Positions 31,901 to 45,118 of a stretch of DNA of 45,118 nt are shown here, piece by piece (within the stretch, counting starts at the first letter, position 1; every line of letters starts with the position of its first letter). The translations under genes were made by a program, and so were the position numbers. The notes beneath the pieces are model-generated. The model made no database searches, was not told the DNA's origin, and saw only the letters and a list, made by a program, of their open reading frames with translations. Source of the stretch: Desulfobacteraceae bacterium (GTDB lineage Bacteria; Desulfobacterota; Syntrophobacteria; Syntrophobacterales; Syntrophobacteraceae); contig JAJFUA010000318.1 of assembly GCA_021372635.1 (NCBI GenBank), positions 1-45,118 on the forward strand, read 5' to 3'.

Positions 31901-32323
31901 ATGAAGGATAAACGCACGTTGCACCTGCGGGTCCAGGAACTTTGCGACTGCTTTGCCGATGCCGATCCCCTGAGGGAGATGGCCGCCGTTTCGAAGGAGG
32001 AGGACAAGGAGGAAGGTGCGGTCAAATGGCTGGCGCTGGCCGTTTTGCACGGGATCGACCGCGCGGCGAAAAAGATCACCATAACGCGTGACAAAGACGG
32101 CGGGATATCCGTAACGGCGAAGTACAGAAAATGGGAATTGCCCTCACCCGGCGGGGACGTCGGCAAACGAATCTTCGACGTCGTCCAGGAGATAACGCAT
32201 ATCGAAAAGAGGAAGGGAAAGACCCCGTTGGCGATAGGAATCCGGGACAGCAGCATTGAAATCACGGTAGAGCTGGAGACGGACGGGGAAACCGGGAGCG
32301 TTACGCTGGAGTTTCCCGAATAG
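31901..32323 (+). CDS. Hypothetical protein (140 residues)
   Basis: Not a family I recognise. The AAGGAG site before the ATG and the amino-acid make-up support a real gene. The first half is helical and acidic (LRVQELCDCFADADPLREM, then a KEEDKEEG stretch, then AVKWLALAVLHGIDRAAKK). The second half alternates as beta strands (KITITRDKDGGISVTAKY, SIEITVELETD, GSVTLEFPE). No signal peptide or membrane span. It converges with the flagellar operon, whose last gene ends 90 bp away; the gap contains no clear terminator. Confidence 0.7.
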   Translation: MKDKRTLHLRVQELCDCFADADPLREMAAVSKEEDKEEGAVKWLALAVLHGIDRAAKKITITRDKDGGISVTAKYRKWELPSPGGDVGKRIFDVVQEITHIEKRKGKTPLAIGIRDSSIEITVELETDGETGSVTLEFPE

Positions 32324-34685: not shown

Positions 34686-35159
34686 TCAGACCTCCGTCCT
34701 GAAGGTGCGTCCCTTGGAGAATGCGCGCTTCACCGCTGCGTTGCCCTGGCCGGGACCATAGGAAGAACGGAAGAACAGGGAGAGCATGTCCTGCCAGAAT
34801 CCCAGGGTATTCTGGATGAAAACCTCATTTGCCCGATTCTGCTCCTGTATGTTTCGGAGCAGGTTTCTCAGTTGCGTTCGGGGGCTGGAAGGGTCCAGGG
34901 AAGCTTTTTCCAGGCCGGCCTTCCGGAGCGTTTCGAGCCTGTCCTGAAGTTCATTCACGAGAATCTGCTTGCCGGGGAGAAGATGCAGCAGATCCTCTCC
35001 GGAGAAACTCCTGAGCGCAGCGGTTTCCTGCGTGAGTATTTCTGACAGGTTCCCTGCCGTTTCGATGCACTCGCTGAACAGGACGGGCATATTTCCCGCG
35101 AGACCTGTGGAATTGCACGCCCGGGGATCATGGGGCGCGCCTAGATTCAGGGTTTCCAT
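34686..35159 (-). CDS. flgN: FlgN-family export chaperone
   Basis: FlgN is the cytoplasmic chaperone for FlgK and FlgL, whose genes follow directly. The 157-residue product is almost wholly helical: LSEILTQETAALRSFSGEDL, KQILVNELQDRLETLRKAG and NRANEVFIQNTLGFWQDML are amphipathic segments of the family. The first 20 residues are variable. The ATG lies four bases after the flgJ stop, with GAGAGAGG upstream. Identity rests on helix pattern and position; sequence conservation in this family is low. Confidence 0.8.
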   Translation of the reverse strand: METLNLGAPHDPRACNSTGLAGNMPVLFSECIETAGNLSEILTQETAALRSFSGEDLLHLLPGKQILVNELQDRLETLRKAGLEKASLDPSSPRTQLRNLLRNIQEQNRANEVFIQNTLGFWQDMLSLFFRSSYGPGQGNAAVKRAFSKGRTFRTEV

Positions 35160-35163
35160 GGTT

Positions 35164-35511
35164 TCAAGCCTCTCTCTCGGGCTGATTTGCAGTTTGCCGT
35201 GCGTCGGTGGCGGGCGAGCAAACCTGCTGCTCTTCCCGGACGAGCGGTTCCAACTGTTTGTAGATGGCTTTCGCGAGTCCGAGTCCCCGGCCGCGGCTGA
35301 ACTCCTTGCAGACGGCCTGATCCATCATTCCTTCGTACATGCCGAGAGCCCGGTCGGGTTCCTCTGCGCGCATGACACCCTCCCGCATCGATTTGACGAT
35401 AAAGGATGTCATAAATGATTCGAATTCCTGGCAGCAGTCCTTGAGCCTTTTTTTCTGAAGGCTGGGCTCCGGAAAAGACTGCTGCGTGGATGCCGGTTCG
35501 ATTGGCTTCAT
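35164..35511 (-). CDS. flgJ: FlgJ-type rod-binding protein (short form)
   Basis: The 115-residue protein matches only the N-terminal rod-binding (rod cap) domain of FlgJ: CQEFESFMTSFIVKSMREGV followed by GMYEGMMDQAVCKEFSRGRGLGLAKAIYKQL. The C-terminal muramidase domain of the E. coli protein is absent, as in many deltaproteobacteria, so a separate lytic enzyme must open the peptidoglycan; none is in the window. GGAGAG precedes the ATG. It lies 79 bp after the second MotB-like gene. Confidence 0.88.
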   Translation of the reverse strand: MKPIEPASTQQSFPEPSLQKKRLKDCCQEFESFMTSFIVKSMREGVMRAEEPDRALGMYEGMMDQAVCKEFSRGRGLGLAKAIYKQLEPLVREEQQVCSPATDARQTANQPEREA

Positions 35512-35590: not shown

Positions 35591-36346
35591 TCAAACCGGT
35601 GGTTCGAATATGATCTCGACGCGTCGGTTAATGGCCCGGTTGACCGTCGTCCGATTGTCCAACAGCGGGTGCGAACTGCCGTAAGCGCCCGCTGCCAGCC
35701 GGTCTGGAGCGACCTGGCAGTTTTTGAGGAAAAATTGCAGGACGGCGAGTGAGCGTGCGAGGGCCAGATTTTCGTTGGTGGCGAACTTTTCGTTGTGTAC
35801 CGAGAGGGCATCCGTATGGCCGTCGACATAGGCATGATATTCCGTACTGCGGATAAAATTTCCCAGCGCCTCGAGAACGGGAAGGGCCTCCGCATGGAGG
35901 TCGGCTCCACCGCTGTCGAAAAGAATGCTGTCGCCGAAGACGACGGAAAATCCGTTGCTGTTTTTGTCTCTTTTGATCCAGATTGCGGTTCCGGAGAACT
36001 GGCCCTTTTCGGAAGACGGATCCCCGAGTTCCGACTCCGGGAGATTGTCCAGATCACGGACCGATGTCGCGCCGGCCTTTTGGAGACCATGAAGGACTTC
36101 CTGGACGGCGGCTTCCGGGGTTAAGCAGGTCTGTTGAGCGTCGTGGCGCGCAAGACTGCTGACGGTGCTGTCGAAATTCCGGAAGGTCGTTTTCAATGCC
36201 TTCTTGCTCATCGACGACATGGAAAGGAACAGCACGAAACAGGTCAGCAGGAGCGTGCAAAGATCCGAGAAGGTGATCATCCACGCCGTGGACCTTTGCG
36301 GTGCGTCCTGGCTATCAATGGTTATCCTGTGCCTCCGCCGCCTCAT
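35591..36346 (-). CDS. MotB-like protein with OmpA domain (second of a tandem pair)
   Basis: The 251-residue protein has a basic, MotB-like N-terminus and one membrane helix (about 21-45, AWMITFSDLCTLLLTCFVLF). D28 sits where the ion-binding aspartate of MotB (D32) lies. Residues 125-250 are an OmpA-like peptidoglycan-binding domain: ILFDSGGADLHAEAL, VDGHTDALS, NRRVEIIFE. The start overlaps the end of the upstream paralogue by 32 bp, with AGAGG four bases before the ATG. No motA is adjacent. It could be a stator subunit or a structural anchor near the P-ring. Confidence 0.85.
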   Translation of the reverse strand: MRRRRHRITIDSQDAPQRSTAWMITFSDLCTLLLTCFVLFLSMSSMSKKALKTTFRNFDSTVSSLARHDAQQTCLTPEAAVQEVLHGLQKAGATSVRDLDNLPESELGDPSSEKGQFSGTAIWIKRDKNSNGFSVVFGDSILFDSGGADLHAEALPVLEALGNFIRSTEYHAYVDGHTDALSVHNEKFATNENLALARSLAVLQFFLKNCQVAPDRLAAGAYGSSHPLLDNRTTVNRAINRRVEIIFEPPV

Positions 36347-37178
36347 AGAACCTCTTCACCCACGGCTGCAGATCCTCGTCCTTTTCCTCATGCGGGGAAT
36401 AGAGCCTGAAAAAGAAATCTTTGTAATTGTAGAACGGGTTGGACTGCCGGTTCTGCGGGACCAGTCCGGAGGGAACGGCATGGTTCGACCCCAGGAGTAT
36501 CTCCACTCGCTGGTTCTTCTCGCTCAGGCCGGGAAAACCGCGGCTGTCCACCAGGGGATGGAGATAGCTGAAGCCGTGGGCGCTCATTCGCTCTGCCCTG
36601 ATTCCTTTTTGAAGAAAGAACGCGTAGACCGCCTGGGCCCTGCGGACGGAAAGCTCCCAGGACCGCATGGACCAGTTGGGATGATCCATCCCTTCATGGA
36701 TATCCGTGTGCCCGCGTATTTCGATTCCATCTTCGGTACGGCTGAAATAAGCGGACAGTTCGGCGAGATATTTTTGAACGTCGCCGCTGATTTCAGTGGT
36801 GCCGGGACGGAAAAGGACCTTTTGATCGATGCGGATCATGGTTTTGTTTTTTCCGACGAGCACCTGGTCCGCGTTGAGATTATTCTCCACGCTGAGGGAT
36901 TTCAGAGCGGGATAGTCTTTTTCTCCGGGGGCGACGCCCTGGGAACCGCCCCGGTCTTCCTGGGCCATGCCGGACGGGGAACGCGTCTTTGGGGCTGATT
37001 CGCCGAAAGACCCGTCGAGCGCCCCCAGGGCCTTCTTCTGGCGATTCGAATCCACCGTGGACATGCTGACGAGCAAAACGAAGAAGGTTAACAGCAGGGT
37101 GCAGAGGTCGGTGTACGTGACGATCCACCGCTGTGTCGTCGACGGCAGGGAGGAAGGTCTGGGCCTCTTTCCGATCAT
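36315..37178 (-). CDS. MotB-like protein with OmpA domain (first of a tandem pair)
   Basis: The 287-residue protein has one N-terminal membrane helix (RWIVTYTDLCTLLLTFFVLL, about 17-40) with D24 at the MotB ion-binding position. A Gly/Ser/Pro-rich linker of about 60 residues, like the MotB plug region, leads to an OmpA-like domain (about 130-235: KVLFRPGTTEIS, IRGHTDIHEG, NQRVEILLG) and a 50-residue tail not seen in its partner. AGGACC precedes the ATG, 11 bp after the flgI stop. Shared TDLCTLLLT and SDLCTLLLT stretches show the pair arose by duplication. Confidence 0.87.
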   Translation of the reverse strand: MIGKRPRPSSLPSTTQRWIVTYTDLCTLLLTFFVLLVSMSTVDSNRQKKALGALDGSFGESAPKTRSPSGMAQEDRGGSQGVAPGEKDYPALKSLSVENNLNADQVLVGKNKTMIRIDQKVLFRPGTTEISGDVQKYLAELSAYFSRTEDGIEIRGHTDIHEGMDHPNWSMRSWELSVRRAQAVYAFFLQKGIRAERMSAHGFSYLHPLVDSRGFPGLSEKNQRVEILLGSNHAVPSGLVPQNRQSNPFYNYKDFFFRLYSPHEEKDEDLQPWVKRFYEAAEAQDNH

Positions 37179-37189
37179 TGCAGGTCCTG

Positions 37190-38308
37190 CTACATCATTT
37201 CCAGTTCGGCCTGGAGCGCCCCCGCGGCACGAATCGCCTGCAGGATGTTGACCAGGTCTCTTGGAGTGGCGCCGATCGCGTTCAGCCCCTGAATGACCTC
37301 TCCAATGGTTACGCCTCCTCCGATGACCGCCAGAGAAGCCTTCCCCTCCTGCACCTGGACACTGGTCTGGGGGACTACGGTGGTCTTTCCCTGACTCAGC
37401 GGCAGAGGCTGGGACACGGCCGGCTTTTCGGTGATCTGAACGGTCAGATTCCCGTGTGCGATGGCGACGGGGGATATGCGCACGCTTTCACCCATGACGA
37501 TCGTTCCGGTCTTTTCGTTGATGACGACCTTTGCGACCATCTCCGGCTGAACCTCCAGGTTTTCGATGCGCGTGAGCATGGCAACCGAATCCTGCTTGTA
37601 GGACGGGGGGACTTCTATGCGGATCGTCGTCCCGTCGACGGCCTGGGCGACTTGCCCGCCGAGCGCCTGGTTGACCGCCGCCGCAGTCTTGTTTGCAGTG
37701 GTGAAGTCGGGGGTTTTCAAAACCAGGTCGAGGCGATGCAGGGAATCGTAGGAGACGGATACTTCCTTTTCCACCAGGGCGCCCTCGGAGATGGTTCCGA
37801 CGGTGGGATGATTTTTCTGCACGCTGCTGCCGCTCGCTCCAGAAATGGCGAATCCACCCGTGGCGACGGGTCCCTGGGCAATCGCGTACGTCTTCCCGTC
37901 GGGCCCCTGGAGCTGGGTCATCAGGAGTGTTCCTCCCGCCAGGCTTTTTGCGTCTCCGATGGAAGACGCTTCGACATCGATCCGCGTACCCACCCGGGCG
38001 AAAGGAGGAAGCTTTGCGGTTACCATGACCGCGGCGACATTCTTGATCTTGACCTGGCCCGGATCGACGTGAATGCCCATGTTGTCGAGAAGGTTGCCCA
38101 GAGTGTTCACGGTAAACAGGGTATTGGTATTGTCTCCCGTACCGTTGAGCCCCACGACCAGGCCGTAGCCGATCAGCATGTTCGGCCGGGTGCCGAGAAA
38201 ATAGGCGATATCCTTGATTCGCGTGGCATAAGCCTCCGATCCCGCAAAGAGGATCAAGGCGGATAACAGTACGCTCAGCAACAGAGCGGGCCTGCGGTTT
38301 ACGTGCAT
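37190..38308 (-). CDS. flgI: Flagellar P-ring protein
   Basis: FlgI forms the periplasmic ring around the rod. A signal peptide (about 1-29, ending SEAYA) is followed by RIKDIAYFLGTRPNMLIGYG, the family opening, then LVVGLNGTGDNTN, NVAAVMVTAKLPPFARVGT and the C-terminal GVTIGEVIQGLNAIGATPRD. The 372-residue length is normal. I chose the ATG at 38308, with GAGGGG upstream; the frame extends to 38578 but that part lacks family sequence. It lies 71 bp after flgH. Confidence 0.95.
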   Translation of the reverse strand: MHVNRRPALLLSVLLSALILFAGSEAYATRIKDIAYFLGTRPNMLIGYGLVVGLNGTGDNTNTLFTVNTLGNLLDNMGIHVDPGQVKIKNVAAVMVTAKLPPFARVGTRIDVEASSIGDAKSLAGGTLLMTQLQGPDGKTYAIAQGPVATGGFAISGASGSSVQKNHPTVGTISEGALVEKEVSVSYDSLHRLDLVLKTPDFTTANKTAAAVNQALGGQVAQAVDGTTIRIEVPPSYKQDSVAMLTRIENLEVQPEMVAKVVINEKTGTIVMGESVRISPVAIAHGNLTVQITEKPAVSQPLPLSQGKTTVVPQTSVQVQEGKASLAVIGGGVTIGEVIQGLNAIGATPRDLVNILQAIRAAGALQAELEMM

Positions 38309-38379: not shown

Positions 38380-39144
38380 TCAGAAGGGATTGATCGCATC
38401 GATCAACTGGTTGAGCCATCCCGGTTTCTGATACTGGGTGACCGGTCCCTTTCCCACCATGAATATTTTCGCTTCGGCGATATTCTGCGAGAGGACCGAA
38501 TTGTTCCGGTTGATATCCGTCGGGCGGACGATCCCCTCGAGGACGATCTGCTCCATATCGTTGTTGACCTTGGTCCATCGGGAACCGCGGATCACCAGGT
38601 TTCCGTTGGGCATGACATCGACCACAGTCGCCGTCATGTAGGCAGTCATGGTATCGGCCTTGGATGTTGACGCGTCTCCCTTGAATCCGCTGGCGAATTC
38701 GCCGCTGTACGGTCCGAATACTGCCGCGCCCTTGGGATTGGCAACTCCCGCCGCGCCCGCTCCGGCCCCGGCAAAAGAGAAGTTGCCGGAAAGGGACTTG
38801 GTTTTGTTGGTGGTTGTAGTGGCGGCGGATGATGCCTTTGCCGATTCACTGACCGTAATGGTCACCACGTCGCCCACTTTTCTGGCACGGAGGTCCTGGA
38901 AGAGCGACCCGTTGGACGACTGCCCCCAGAGGGATCCGGTCGGGGCCGACGTGACGGGCGGGGGGCCTGCCTGCGGCAGAGGCGTGAGAGGGATCGGCGC
39001 GGTGGCCTTCATGCTCTCGGCGACTTTCGGCTGCTCGGTGGCGGTAGTGACGCAGGCTGTCAGCAACAGCCCGGCGGCGGCGCACGATAGAACGGTGCGG
39101 CTCCACTTGCAGAACCCGTGTTGGGTGGAATGTGCCTGTGACAT
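38380..39144 (-). CDS. flgH: Flagellar L-ring lipoprotein
   Basis: FlgH forms the outer-membrane ring. The lipobox LLTAC at about residues 27-31 marks acylation of the Cys. A Pro-rich linker (about 45-70) comes before GSLWGQSSNGSLFQDLRA, the family opening, then GDVVTITVSESAKASSAA, NGNLVIRGSR and GIVRPTDINRNNSVLSQNIA. At 254 residues it is slightly longer than the E. coli protein, owing to the linker. GGGAG precedes the ATG. Confidence 0.95.
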   Translation of the reverse strand: MSQAHSTQHGFCKWSRTVLSCAAAGLLLTACVTTATEQPKVAESMKATAPIPLTPLPQAGPPPVTSAPTGSLWGQSSNGSLFQDLRARKVGDVVTITVSESAKASSAATTTTNKTKSLSGNFSFAGAGAGAAGVANPKGAAVFGPYSGEFASGFKGDASTSKADTMTAYMTATVVDVMPNGNLVIRGSRWTKVNNDMEQIVLEGIVRPTDINRNNSVLSQNIAEAKIFMVGKGPVTQYQKPGWLNQLIDAINPF

Positions 39145-39173: not shown

Positions 39174-40199
39174 CTAGCGGACAGCCTGTACGGTCTGGCT
39201 GTCGACGACCCTGCAATGAATGGTCCGGTCCGAGGAAACGTTGCTGACACGGACCGTATCCCCCATGCTTCCTTCTTCCCGTACCTGACCTTTAGCGGTC
39301 AGTTGCAATCCAGGCGTGTTGTAGATGATTGTGACGGCGTCGCCGCGCTTCAGGAGAAGCGGCTTATCGAGATTTTTCAGTTCGAACGCCTGATGGATTC
39401 CGACATTGCGAAGAAGGCGCTTGTTGACGACCTGGTCCGGTTGTGTGGCGTAGCGCTCCGTGCTCTCGGAAACGTTGATCCTCTGGTATTCGAGATCCGC
39501 CGCAGTGATGAGATCGTTCTGCTTCAGGGCCCGGGAGGCATGGATGACGTTCTGGAATACGTCCACTTTCCCGCTGACTCCGAGGCTGCGGACCTTTTCC
39601 GCGTTCACGAAAAAGTTTACCGTTACGTTCACGTTTCCCACAAAGCGGCCGCGCTGGCTCGGGACGACCTCGTAGGTCATCGGCCCTTCAGGGAGTATCG
39701 GCAACCCGGTGAAGCTGACCTTCTGGATCACGATGTCCTGGGGGTTCCATGGAGAATTGTCCCTGATGTACTTTTGAAAGATCGATTCGATCTGCTCCTG
39801 GGAGATCTGAACGGCCTGCCTTGCCACGACGATCTTATCGGGCATGGTGATGCGGACCTGGGTGGGATTGGCCCCCTGGGATTCGATGAACCGTTCGAGA
39901 TAGACTTTCATCGTGGCGGGTTCGACGAATTTTTCCGAACTGACGGCGGGTGCTTCGCCTATGTCCTGCTTCGCCATGACCTTCCGCCAATCTTCCGGGA
40001 TTGTGGAACTGTCGCAAAGATCGAGAAGAAAAACCTGCTTGCGCGATACCGATATCTTTCCGAGCACGCGAATTTCCGAAATGGCGCTCATGGCCGCGCA
40101 TTCCGTCCCGTGAAAGCCGTCGTTCCACGAAATCTCCCCCCCGAGAACCAGGAGGCAGCATGCCAGGATAACGGTTGTCCGCAATGTCAAATAGCGCAT
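39174..40199 (-). CDS. flgA: FlgA, P-ring assembly chaperone
   Basis: FlgA is a periplasmic chaperone that helps FlgI polymerise. A signal peptide (about 1-21) is followed by a 170-residue N-terminal part, then a SAF domain: DVFQNVIHASRALKQNDLIT, DQVVNKRLLRNVG, and GDAVTIIYNTPGLQLTAKGQ at the C-terminus. At 341 residues it is about 120 longer than E. coli FlgA, all at the N-terminus, as in other deltaproteobacteria. AGGGAAG precedes the ATG, 20 bp after flgG. Confidence 0.9.
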   Translation of the reverse strand: MRYLTLRTTVILACCLLVLGGEISWNDGFHGTECAAMSAISEIRVLGKISVSRKQVFLLDLCDSSTIPEDWRKVMAKQDIGEAPAVSSEKFVEPATMKVYLERFIESQGANPTQVRITMPDKIVVARQAVQISQEQIESIFQKYIRDNSPWNPQDIVIQKVSFTGLPILPEGPMTYEVVPSQRGRFVGNVNVTVNFFVNAEKVRSLGVSGKVDVFQNVIHASRALKQNDLITAADLEYQRINVSESTERYATQPDQVVNKRLLRNVGIHQAFELKNLDKPLLLKRGDAVTIIYNTPGLQLTAKGQVREEGSMGDTVRVSNVSSDRTIHCRVVDSQTVQAVR

Positions 40200-40219: not shown

Positions 40220-40999
40220 TTATTTTACGTTGTTGGCCATTTGCAGCATTTCGTCGGAGGACTTGATGATCTTGGAGTTGGCTTCATAAGCCCGCTGCGT
40301 CAGAATCATGTTGACCATCTCCTCGACAACGCTGATGTTCGAGCTTTCCAGGCTTCCCTGCAGGAGGGTGCCCAAGCTTTCGGTCCCCGGCTGCGCTTCC
40401 GTCACGTCTCCGGAGGCATCGCTCGGAACGTAGTAGTTGTGCCCGGCACTGACGAGGCCGCTTGGGTTCGGAAAATCATAGAGCCGTATATTGCTGGTGC
40501 CGAGAACCGTTCCGTTGGCATCGACGGCCGAGAGGGTCCCGGCCGCATCGACGTTGATGGTCACGGTCTTCTTGGGAATGCTGATTTCGGGCTGGAGGCG
40601 GTTTCCGGCGGCATCGACGACGAATCCTTCCGAATCCTGCTTGAAGGAACCCGCGCGTGTATAAACCTCCGTCGAGCCTCGAAGGACTTTGAAGAACCCT
40701 CTGCCCTCGATGGCCAGGTCCAGCTGGTTGTTGGTCTGGGTGAAATTGCCCTGCTCGAAAATCTTCTCGACGGATACCGTCTTGGCCCCCATTCCGATCT
40801 GGATGCCCGTCGGGATGCGGGTATTGTTCCCCGTCTCGGCCCCCGGCGTGGTGATTGTCTGGTAGATCAGATCCTCGAAATTCCCGCGGCTGCGCTTGAA
40901 GGCGGTGGTGTTCGCGTTGGCGAGGTTGTGGGCGATAACGTCCAGGTTGGTCTGTTGCGCCGTCATGCCGGTTGCCGCGGTTGCCAGGCTGCGTATCAT
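40220..40999 (-). CDS. flgG: Flagellar distal rod protein
   Basis: FlgG builds the distal rod through the P- and L-rings. The 259-residue protein opens MIRSLATAATGMTAQQTNLD, has the rod motif IAHNLANANTTAFKRSR, LDLAIEGRGFFKVL and the C-terminal NISVVEEMVNMILTQRAYE. I chose the ATG at 40999 because GGGAGAGA lies just upstream; the frame continues to 41221 with non-family sequence. It lies 56 bp after flgF, its paralogue. Confidence 0.95.
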   Translation of the reverse strand: MIRSLATAATGMTAQQTNLDVIAHNLANANTTAFKRSRGNFEDLIYQTITTPGAETGNNTRIPTGIQIGMGAKTVSVEKIFEQGNFTQTNNQLDLAIEGRGFFKVLRGSTEVYTRAGSFKQDSEGFVVDAAGNRLQPEISIPKKTVTINVDAAGTLSAVDANGTVLGTSNIRLYDFPNPSGLVSAGHNYYVPSDASGDVTEAQPGTESLGTLLQGSLESSNISVVEEMVNMILTQRAYEANSKIIKSSDEMLQMANNVK

Positions 41000-41055
41000 G
41001 ATTCTCTCCCTTTTTCGTCGAACTGTGCGACGCTGCCGCACGATACCGGGTATGT

Positions 41056-41736
41056 TTACAGGCTCCCGAGTTTGTTGATGACTTGAGAATCGAGTTCCTG
41101 TGCCGAGATCTGGAGCACCTTCTGGTAGGCCTCGAAAACGCGCATTGTGTCGACCATCCGCGCCATTTCCTCGACGAGACTGAAATTGGCCGATTCCAGG
41201 GAGCTTTGCTGGACGGTGCAATTCTTGGCCGGAGAGGGCGCGTCTTCTTCGTTCTTTGGCTTCACGTAGCTTCCATGCACCTTGTTCAAGACGGTCCCCT
41301 GCGGAAATGCCACGAGATCCAGGGTGGCCACCGATTGCTCCCCGTCAAATACCTGACCATCCTGTTCGATCCGCACGTTTCTGTCGTTGGCTTTAATGAC
41401 GCCCGCCTTTCCCAGAACCGGATAACCGTCCTGGTTGACGAGCTTGTTCTCTTTGTCGAGTTTCAGGTTGCCGGCGCGGGAATAGAGTATGCCGTCCGGT
41501 GTCTGGACTTTGAGAAAACCCTCTCCGACGAGAGCAATATCGAGGGGTTGCCCGGTGTTTTGAATGGAACCCTGATTCCAGATGGTTCGCGTGGTCTGAT
41601 CGATGAAATCGGCGAAATGGACCTCATCCTTCTTGTAACCGGGCGTGTTCACGTTCGCGATGTTGTTGGCAATGACATCCAGGCGCTTTTGCTGCTCAAT
41701 GGAACCAAGCGCGGCCGCACGGTCTGCGATCTTCAT
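41056..41736 (-). CDS. flgF: Flagellar proximal rod protein FlgF
   Basis: The 226-residue rod protein begins MKIADRAAALGSIEQQKRLD, with IANNIANVNTPGYKKDE as rod motif and LDIALVGEGFLKVQTPDG, then ends with FSLVEEMARMVDTMRVFEAY. It is shorter than flgG, consistent with FlgF. AAGGAGAG lies six bases before the ATG at 41736. A strong sigma-54 promoter lies directly upstream, making this the first gene of the rod/ring/junction operon. Confidence 0.92.
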   Translation of the reverse strand: MKIADRAAALGSIEQQKRLDVIANNIANVNTPGYKKDEVHFADFIDQTTRTIWNQGSIQNTGQPLDIALVGEGFLKVQTPDGILYSRAGNLKLDKENKLVNQDGYPVLGKAGVIKANDRNVRIEQDGQVFDGEQSVATLDLVAFPQGTVLNKVHGSYVKPKNEEDAPSPAKNCTVQQSSLESANFSLVEEMARMVDTMRVFEAYQKVLQISAQELDSQVINKLGSL

Positions 41737-41763
41737 GGCGCTCTCCTTTTCGAAAGGTTGTGG

Positions 41764-41780
41764 TTGCAATGAAAGTGCCA
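41764..41780 (-). promoter_or_regulatory. Sigma-54 (RpoN) promoter of the flgF operon
   Basis: On the minus strand TGGCAC, a five-base spacer and TTGCAA put GG at -24 and GC at -12 with exact ten-base separation, matching the RpoN consensus. Transcription would start near 41755, about 19 nt before the flgF ATG. An enhancer-binding activator of the FlrC/FleQ type would be required; none is in the window and I could not identify its sites upstream. Confidence 0.85.
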
Positions 41781-41952
41781 GATTCATTCCGTGGGCTATG
41801 ATCTGTAAGCTATTGCACTTACATGGTTATTTTAGGTCGTGGGGCGACGGTGGTCCGGAAGGGCAGGGAAGGAAGGCAAAATTTGCCGTGCGCTGCGTGT
41901 CGTTTTTGACGGCCGCCGGGGTTGGAGGGAGCTGGCATGGCGGGAAAACGAA

Positions 41953-42587: not shown

Positions 42588-43370
42588 CTAGAGTCTTTCA
42601 ATCCGGCTGACGCGCATTTGGTCGGCACGGAAACCCGGCAGTGCCGAATGAAGATGAGCCGTCAGGTCCCTCTGCACAATTTTCTGCCAGTCCTTGAGCG
42701 TGTTTCTGGGAGGATGCTGGGCTTCAAGGAAGCGATAGACCGTATCCCGGAAGAGAGTACTGTCGTTCTGGTAGCTTCGGTATTTTTCCTCGCTGTGGAA
42801 ATCGAGTTCCAGGCTGAGGAAAACGATTTTTTTCCCATCCTGGGCATTGGCCACGATGAAAAACTCGGCCTTTTCCTGGAAATGCGGCACGACGATCTGC
42901 TTGCGAATTTGCGAGACAATCTGTCTGGGAGCGGGTGTGGAGTCCTGAACCAGCATTCTTACGGCGAATGCGCAAACCACTGCGACCAGCAGCAGGGAAG
43001 AGACGCCCAGCAGGAGCATCTTCTTCAGTGCGACTTTCCGCACATGCGCGGAGGAGGGGACTGCGACCGGGGCTGGTTCCGGCGGAGATTCGGGTTCCGG
43101 TTGTTCCTCCATGACCGGGTCGAAGGCGTCCAGAGAGAATCCATGGGACGAATTCTCCTCCTGCGAATCCGAGGTTTCCGAAAAGTCGAAGAGATCGGGC
43201 CCGTGACTTTCGCCTTCCTCATCGGGCATCATCAGGCTCATGTCGGAGCGATCCGAAGCCACATCGAAATCGGCCGCGAGCTGACTTTCGAGTTGCTTTT
43301 CGAAATCGTCAGGTTCTTCGGGCGGCGTCATATCGTTGTCGATGATTTTTCTTCGGATTTCGCGTGACAT
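42588..43370 (-). CDS. FliL-like flagellar membrane protein with long acidic N-terminus
   Basis: The 260-residue protein has a long cytoplasmic part (1-110) rich in Asp, Glu and Pro, one membrane helix (about 118-140, MLLLGVSSLLLVAVVCAFAV) and a periplasmic domain. The latter has a strand VFLSLELDFHSE followed by helices (LFRDTVYRFLEAQ, WQKIVQRDLTAHLHSALPG) and ends RVSRIERL, the pattern of the FliL stomatin-like domain. FliL binds stators. The call is moderate because the domain is divergent and the acidic tail is unusually long. AGGAA lies nine bases before the ATG. It lies between fliA and the DUF2802 gene. Confidence 0.6.
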   Translation of the reverse strand: MSREIRRKIIDNDMTPPEEPDDFEKQLESQLAADFDVASDRSDMSLMMPDEEGESHGPDLFDFSETSDSQEENSSHGFSLDAFDPVMEEQPEPESPPEPAPVAVPSSAHVRKVALKKMLLLGVSSLLLVAVVCAFAVRMLVQDSTPAPRQIVSQIRKQIVVPHFQEKAEFFIVANAQDGKKIVFLSLELDFHSEEKYRSYQNDSTLFRDTVYRFLEAQHPPRNTLKDWQKIVQRDLTAHLHSALPGFRADQMRVSRIERL

Positions 43371-44316: not shown

Positions 44317-45118
44317 TTAGGTGTTCAGCAATCGCTTCCAGAAAAACTGTATCGTGCCCTGGTTCATATATGGTTCTATCTTTTGGACCGCTTTGGCGAC
44401 CCGCATGATGGCCGATGATGCCGGGGACTCCGGAAAAAGCTCGAGAAGCGGGCGCTGCTGTATGACGGCCCTGGGAACATTGGGGTCGTACGGAATGCTT
44501 CCGAGGTAATCCAGAGAGAGTCCGTCGAGGAAATGATCGGCGACTTTGCTGATCTTTGCGAACAGGGCCTTGCCGGCTTTTTCGTCCTTGACCTGATTGG
44601 TGAGTATCCTGAAGTAACGTTCCCCATGGCGCGTGTAGAGCACCTTGATGAGGGCGTAGGCATCGGTCAGGGAGGTGGGTTCGGGCGTGATCACGATGAT
44701 CTTTTCCTGGGCGGCCATATTGAAATAGAGAACCATATCGGAAATGCCGGCGCTCGTATCGATGAGCAGTATGTCGATATCGGTCTCCAGTTCGTCGAGC
44801 ATCTCGAGGAAGATCAGCTTCTGTTCATGGGTGAGGCGCGTGAGTTCCTGCACGCCGGAACTGGCCGGCATGATGCGGATATTCCGCGGACCGCGCACGA
44901 GAACCTCATCCAACCGCCTGGAGCCGTTCAAAATATGGCTGACGTTGTATTTGGGGGCCAACCCAAGGAGTACGTCGATATTGGCCAGGCCGAGGTCCGC
45001 GTCCATGATGAGAACGCGCTGGCCGAGCGTCTCCAGGGCCATGGCCAGGTTCACTACGATGTTGCTTTTCCCGACCCCGCCTTTGCCGCTGCTGATCGCC
45101 ATGGCGCGGATCGGCTTC
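44317..45118 (-). CDS. flhG: FlhG, flagellar number regulator ATPase (5' end outside window)
   Basis: This ParA/MinD-type ATPase limits flagellar number together with FlhF, whose gene usually precedes it. SGKGGVGKSN is the deviant P-loop, MDADLGLANIDVLLGLAP the Walker A' region and LLIDTSAGISDMVLY the Walker B. The frame continues upstream through KPIRA to the window edge, so the ATG at 45102 is probably internal, as true FlhG proteins have about 20 more residues with an FlhF-activating helix. It is followed by fliA. It is the paralogue of the ATPase near 5.0-5.8 kb. Confidence 0.92.
   Translation of the reverse strand, partial: KPIRAMAISSGKGGVGKSNIVVNLAMALETLGQRVLIMDADLGLANIDVLLGLAPKYNVSHILNGSRRLDEVLVRGPRNIRIMPASSGVQELTRLTHEQKLIFLEMLDELETDIDILLIDTSAGISDMVLYFNMAAQEKIIVITPEPTSLTDAYALIKVLYTRHGERYFRILTNQVKDEKAGKALFAKISKVADHFLDGLSLDYLGSIPYDPNVPRAVIQQRPLLELFPESPASSAIMRVAKAVQKIEPYMNQGTIQFFWKRLLNT

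Follow-up and report, generated by a model that had tools for sequence, protein, structure and literature searches.

Two MotB-type proteins encoded in tandem within a flagellar gene cluster of a member of the Desulfobacterota probably share a single MotA, in a two-B stator whose axle would likely be heterodimeric. The window, as we call the whole stretch of DNA analysed, comprises 45,118 nt of contig JAJFUA010000318.1 from the genome assembly (GCA_021372635.1; 4.26 Mb in 454 contigs) of a Desulfobacteraceae bacterium (Desulfobacterota; Syntrophobacteria; Syntrophobacterales; Syntrophobacteraceae). Its minus strand carries, in order, flhG (cut), fliA, a 260-aa protein, a DUF6115 protein, flgF, flgG, flgA, flgH, flgI, motB1, motB2, flgJ, flgN, flgK and flgL, with the following principal features:

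44317–45118, minus strand: flhG, truncated by the contig end, its last 20 bp overlapping contig C1
43467–44291, minus strand: fliA sigma factor; order conserved in relatives
41056–41787, minus strand: flgF; order conserved in relatives
40220–41005, minus strand: flgG; relatives 65–72% identical
39174–40199, minus strand: flgA; order conserved in relatives
38380–39144, minus strand: flgH, assigned from sequence; order conserved in relatives
37190–38308, minus strand: flgI, P-ring protein, directly upstream of MotB1 (PF02119, E = 1.5e-139); conserved neighbour
36315–37178, minus strand: MotB1, 287 aa; helix with D24, MotB1-specific post-helix segment, OmpA domain and conserved C-terminal tail
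35591–36346, minus strand: MotB2, 251 aa; helix with D28, MotB2-specific linker and OmpA domain, without the tail
35164–35511, minus strand: flgJ, directly downstream of MotB2 (PF10135, E = 1.9e-9); conserved neighbour
34686–35159, minus strand: flgN (PF05130, just over the cut-off)

The initial annotation of this DNA had described the two MotB-like reading frames correctly, including their coordinates, helix aspartates and OmpA domains, and its placement of the tandem between flgI and flgJ is confirmed by Pfam matches and by the conserved neighbours. Twelve base pairs separate the flgI stop from the MotB1 start, the MotB1 and MotB2 frames overlap by 32 bp, and about 80 bp lie between the MotB2 stop and the flgJ start; scans for promoters and terminators returned signal at background level only. 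Three neighbouring features can be recorded here. The window FlgJ consists of the rod-binding domain alone, the muramidase domain being absent; the 260-aa protein whose gene is flanked by fliA and the DUF6115 gene (42588–43370, minus strand) has no Pfam match and occupies a position conserved in many relatives; and a 140-aa reading frame facing flgL (31901–32323, plus strand), also without a Pfam match, has a counterpart of 58% identity downstream of flgL in genome G006.

Both tandem proteins exceed the curated cut-offs for the MotB plug (PF13677; E = 1.4e-14 for MotB1 and 1.4e-11 for MotB2) and for the OmpA domain (PF00691; E = 4.1e-10 and 7.9e-12, respectively), and both carry the ion-binding aspartate of a stator B subunit: D24 of MotB1 corresponds to the MotB aspartate and is invariant among 17 orthologues, and D28 of MotB2 corresponds to it and is retained in 16 of 17. 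The shared stretch TDLCTLLLT/SDLCTLLLT to which attention had been drawn is present, but DLCTLLLT is a general pattern of MotB helices in the class. AlphaFold single-chain models, which hold no information on the dimer, gave pLDDT values of 72 and 79, and the MotB1 model matches the periplasmic domains of MotB, MotS and PomB.

Comparison of orthologues establishes, at the level of sequence, that MotB1 and MotB2 form two distinct orthologous groups, each marked by its own conserved segments. MotB1 orthologues have in common a post-helix segment with the consensus ALxSLVGAFGFLPGGRS, and MotB2 orthologues possess a conserved linker of their own. The C-terminal tail initially noted on the first protein only is borne out, with MotB1 extending about 55 residues beyond the OmpA domain and retaining a conserved NYKDFFFRLY core (FYNYKDFFFRLY, residues 249–260), for which the consensus among MotB1 orthologues is FNYKNFFFRLF and within which Y252, F255 and F257 do not vary among 17. 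A single pattern for this tail motif matched 22 of 22 Asp-bearing MotB1 proteins, 22 of 52 Asp-less ones and none of the 74 MotB2, and several further Asp-less MotB1 have near forms of it, such as YKGYxF. All 69 MotB1 fell into one clade in a full-length tree built by a quick method (SH-aLRT 99); a tree of the periplasmic part did not resolve MotB1 as one clade, so that it neither confirms nor rejects monophyly.

The description of the pair as lacking MotA holds for its immediate surroundings, but one motA stands at the head of this gene block and a complete motAB pair lies elsewhere in the genome. The host genome encodes three MotB and two flagellar MotA proteins; a third MotA_ExbB match, on contig C75, has no MotA_N match. 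One MotA belongs to a conventional motAB pair on contig C433, whose MotB scores 219 bits against the NCBIfam model. The other (C1:1554–2318, 254 aa) stands in the order flgD (minus strand), motA, fliL, fliM, fliN, a fliO-like reading frame, fliP, fliQ, fliR, flhB, flhA, flhF and the start of flhG. The terminal 20 bp of the window (45099–45118) recur exactly at the end of C1 and continue flhG in frame, and the two contigs appear to be adjacent in the genome. This overlap, together with relatives that have the same order on one contig, places the MotA stop about 16,990 bp upstream of where MotB1 starts, on the same strand. Among solved structures, this MotA matches a C. sporogenes-type MotA (222 bits) and PomA (186 bits); it resembles solved MotA and PomA chains alike, which does not distinguish H+ from Na+.

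Both MotB1 and MotB2 very probably belong with the C1 MotA. Among 60 relatives, 20 have the tandem as their only two MotB and a single MotA, with no other stator genes, and both MotBs are therefore probably B subunits of that MotA. The earlier proposal that the paralogues work with a distant MotA is accordingly likely to be right, the MotA now being located. This distribution comes from a genome search (a single-protein scan of contigs had returned one close relative only), and its counts include related genomes, such that the events are not independent. The MotA orthologue is 60–74% identical across most relatives, where it heads the fliL–fliM operon, and was found in 65 of 297 genomes of the phylum at E below 1e-75.

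The examined members of the window's family and order keep the tandem in the flgI/flgJ interval, and their fliL operon begins with motA. Other families of the class (G041, G043, G045 and G048), together with genomes across the phylum, have the order motA–motB1–motB2–fliL–fliM, and motA–motB1–motB2–fliL is contiguous at nearly all sampled MotA orthologue loci outside the window order; five sampled loci (G133, G206, G280, G318 and G355) have a single MotB. Two genomes, G265 (L238:4651–6183) and G305 (L239:5449–6981), carry motB1–motB2 together at a non-flagellar site, next to genes resembling those for Der GTPase and CTP synthase (names from sequence reading), with motA directly before fliL. With the window order, this makes two lineages in which the B genes are apart from motA yet still together. 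Relocation of the motB1–motB2 unit from the motA/fliL interval to the flgI/flgJ interval best explains the arrangement in the window order.

Across the phylum, the helix aspartate is distributed unevenly between the two proteins. In 74 pairs, the residues at this position (MotB1, MotB2) were S,D in 33, A,D in 14, G,D in 3, T,D in 2, D,D in 21 and D,T in 1; that is, Asp is absent from MotB1 in 52 pairs, from MotB2 in one and from both in none. The Asp-less MotB1 proteins span 19 families and still exceed the MotB_plug cut-off, and their mean identity to one another is 0.45 in the helix versus 0.28 in the periplasmic part. An acidic residue occurs somewhere in the helix window in four of 55 Asp-less MotB1 rows, in none of them at the Asp position. 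The sole Asp-less MotB2, from the single-contig genome G037 (L058:5600–6340), has Thr instead, with the codons GCGACC where a Ser–Asp pair is expected, and its MotB1 retains Asp. Because MotB2 has lost its Asp just once, the lack of double losses is weak evidence; what carries weight is that an Asp-less MotB1 has long been retained beside one MotA. The divided roles suggested initially for the two proteins find support in their separate orthologous groups, in the tail motif missing from MotB2 and in an Asp loss that in most relatives affects MotB1 only.

The trees do not distinguish several losses of Asp from its regain in the class of the window. Within one genus, MotB1 has Asp in G149 (L113) and Ala in G124 (L122), and the MotB1 helix of G149 resembles its MotB2 helix. 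An old gene conversion from MotB2 is a possible origin of this helix; a recent one is excluded, DNA identity being only 38 of 51 bases.

MotB-type subunits form a dimeric, peptidoglycan-anchored axle within a MotA pentamer, giving 5:2 motors (PMC9389320). In the arrangement we favour, MotA would make the usual pentamer and MotB1 and MotB2 would together form the axle, most likely as a heterodimer (MotA5:B1:B2), with both B subunits attached to the cell wall; through its tail, MotB1 may contact a partner that MotB2 does not, be it FliL, the P-ring or MotB2 itself. We infer the presence of B1 and B2 in one MotA pentamer from their co-occurrence and the Asp pattern: where an Asp-less B1 with a MotB-like helix is retained beside one MotA, a heterodimer with B2 is the simplest explanation. 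Ion binding would be possible at both subunits in the window organism, whose genome adds a conventional motAB stator to this one. Over most of the phylum the ion site of MotB1 is missing, which would leave MotB2 as the sole conducting subunit.

More tentatively, the stator may be asymmetric in a wide range of bacteria of this phylum, with an obligate MotB1:MotB2 axle bearing one Asp rather than two and the window order as a two-site version whose B pair lies at the P-ring genes; we regard this extension as possible but hold it with less than even confidence. In models of 5:2 motors the two B chains are nominally identical, and ten ions per turn follow from that symmetry. An asymmetric stator would pass about five ions, not ten, per turn of the MotA ring, and a lineage that naturally lacks the ion site on one B chain would offer a direct test of the ten-ion symmetry, with the two-site window order as a natural control.

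To our knowledge, MotAB, PomAB and MotPS stators pair each A gene with a single B gene and have a homodimeric axle; they resemble the tandem in their MotB helix–plug and OmpA domain. Myxococcus AglRQS is like the tandem in combining one MotA homologue with two MotB-like proteins and unlike it in being a gliding motor, in its TolR-like periplasmic domains and in having Asp described in both B proteins. Several stators in one bacterium, as in the window organism, are also seen with Pseudomonas MotCD, in which each set nevertheless has one A and one B (motC–motD), and with the multiple MotAB sets of Bdellovibrio, likewise of one A with one B each (PMC11323537). Whether the two AglRQS B proteins heterodimerize is described as not known (PMC9389320).

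A precedent exists for one motA with two motB: a motA–motB1–motB2 operon has been published for Aquifex aeolicus, which like the window has one MotA gene and two MotB genes with very different periplasmic parts (PMC4525482). The Aquifex helices differ by one residue (Gly/Ser), meaning that both chains share helix residues, and their identity of 97%, as given in the paper (PMC4525482), compares with 62% over the helix window for the window pair. Whereas the Aquifex genes are contiguous, the window genome has no such contiguous set, its B pair being displaced about 17 kb from motA; and no Asp-less member has been described for Aquifex (PMC4525482), whereas such members are common among the MotB1 of this phylum. 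Chimeras with the MotB1 helix or the MotB2 helix, each combined separately with MotA, gave weak motility in E. coli (PMC4525482), which indicates that the D,D system of Aquifex can do without heterodimers.

The separate function of those chimeras favours an alternative in which MotA pairs with a MotB1 dimer or a MotB2 dimer in interchangeable units tuned for load, ion or anchoring. This would suit the window order, where both chains bear Asp and mixed or separate dimers could conduct, and the differing linkers and the tail confined to MotB1 are also in keeping with it. A homodimer of Asp-less MotB1, however, is not expected to conduct, its ion site being missing, yet such proteins make up the majority of MotB1 sampled and are kept in 19 families, which leaves separate homodimers unlikely.

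Less probable again is that MotB1 acts outside the ion-conducting axle, bound to peptidoglycan near the P-ring in a scaffolding or regulatory role, with MotB2 as the sole B subunit. Most MotB1 proteins do lack the Asp, the conserved tail is unique to MotB1, and in the window the pair adjoins flgI and flgH. Set against this, the MotB1 helix and plug are MotB-like and over the Pfam cut-off, MotB1 of the window order has the Asp, in G037 it is MotB2 that has lost it, and the usual position of the gene is directly after motA rather than at flgI. A periplasmic collar, an early candidate for the pair, does not stand as first choice: the MotB-like helix is kept, and motA–motB1–motB2–fliL is the commonest order in the phylum. 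Unlike MotX/MotY-type T-ring or collar proteins, which are periplasmic and without a MotB helix, both tandem proteins have helix and plug.

That the tandem serves the MotA of the conventional pair, or consists of non-flagellar OmpA proteins, is very improbable and largely refuted by gene order and co-occurrence: a complete motAB pair is indeed present in the genome, but 20 relatives without one keep the tandem and the other MotA, and the flagellar gene order is conserved. The initial annotation had held that a motAB pair elsewhere, together with a phylogeny placing both proteins in a non-flagellar OmpA family, would speak against its reading; the pair exists, but by phylogeny as well as by gene order both proteins belong with flagellar operons.

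Under the favoured reading, two B subunits sharing one MotA, the genes for a stator need not adjoin: an A gene can stand apart from a B–B pair, an arrangement that annotation reads as 'MotB without MotA'. The displaced pair and the Asp-less MotB1 are apparently unreported; our search of the open-access literature found no report of either, or of the phylum-wide spread and the MotB1 tail, which is not proof of absence. Two divergent MotA/MotB-like pairs were also seen off the flagellar cluster, at L049:5638–7521 (G018) and L240:1413–3053 (G305), with odd N-terminal or helix regions.
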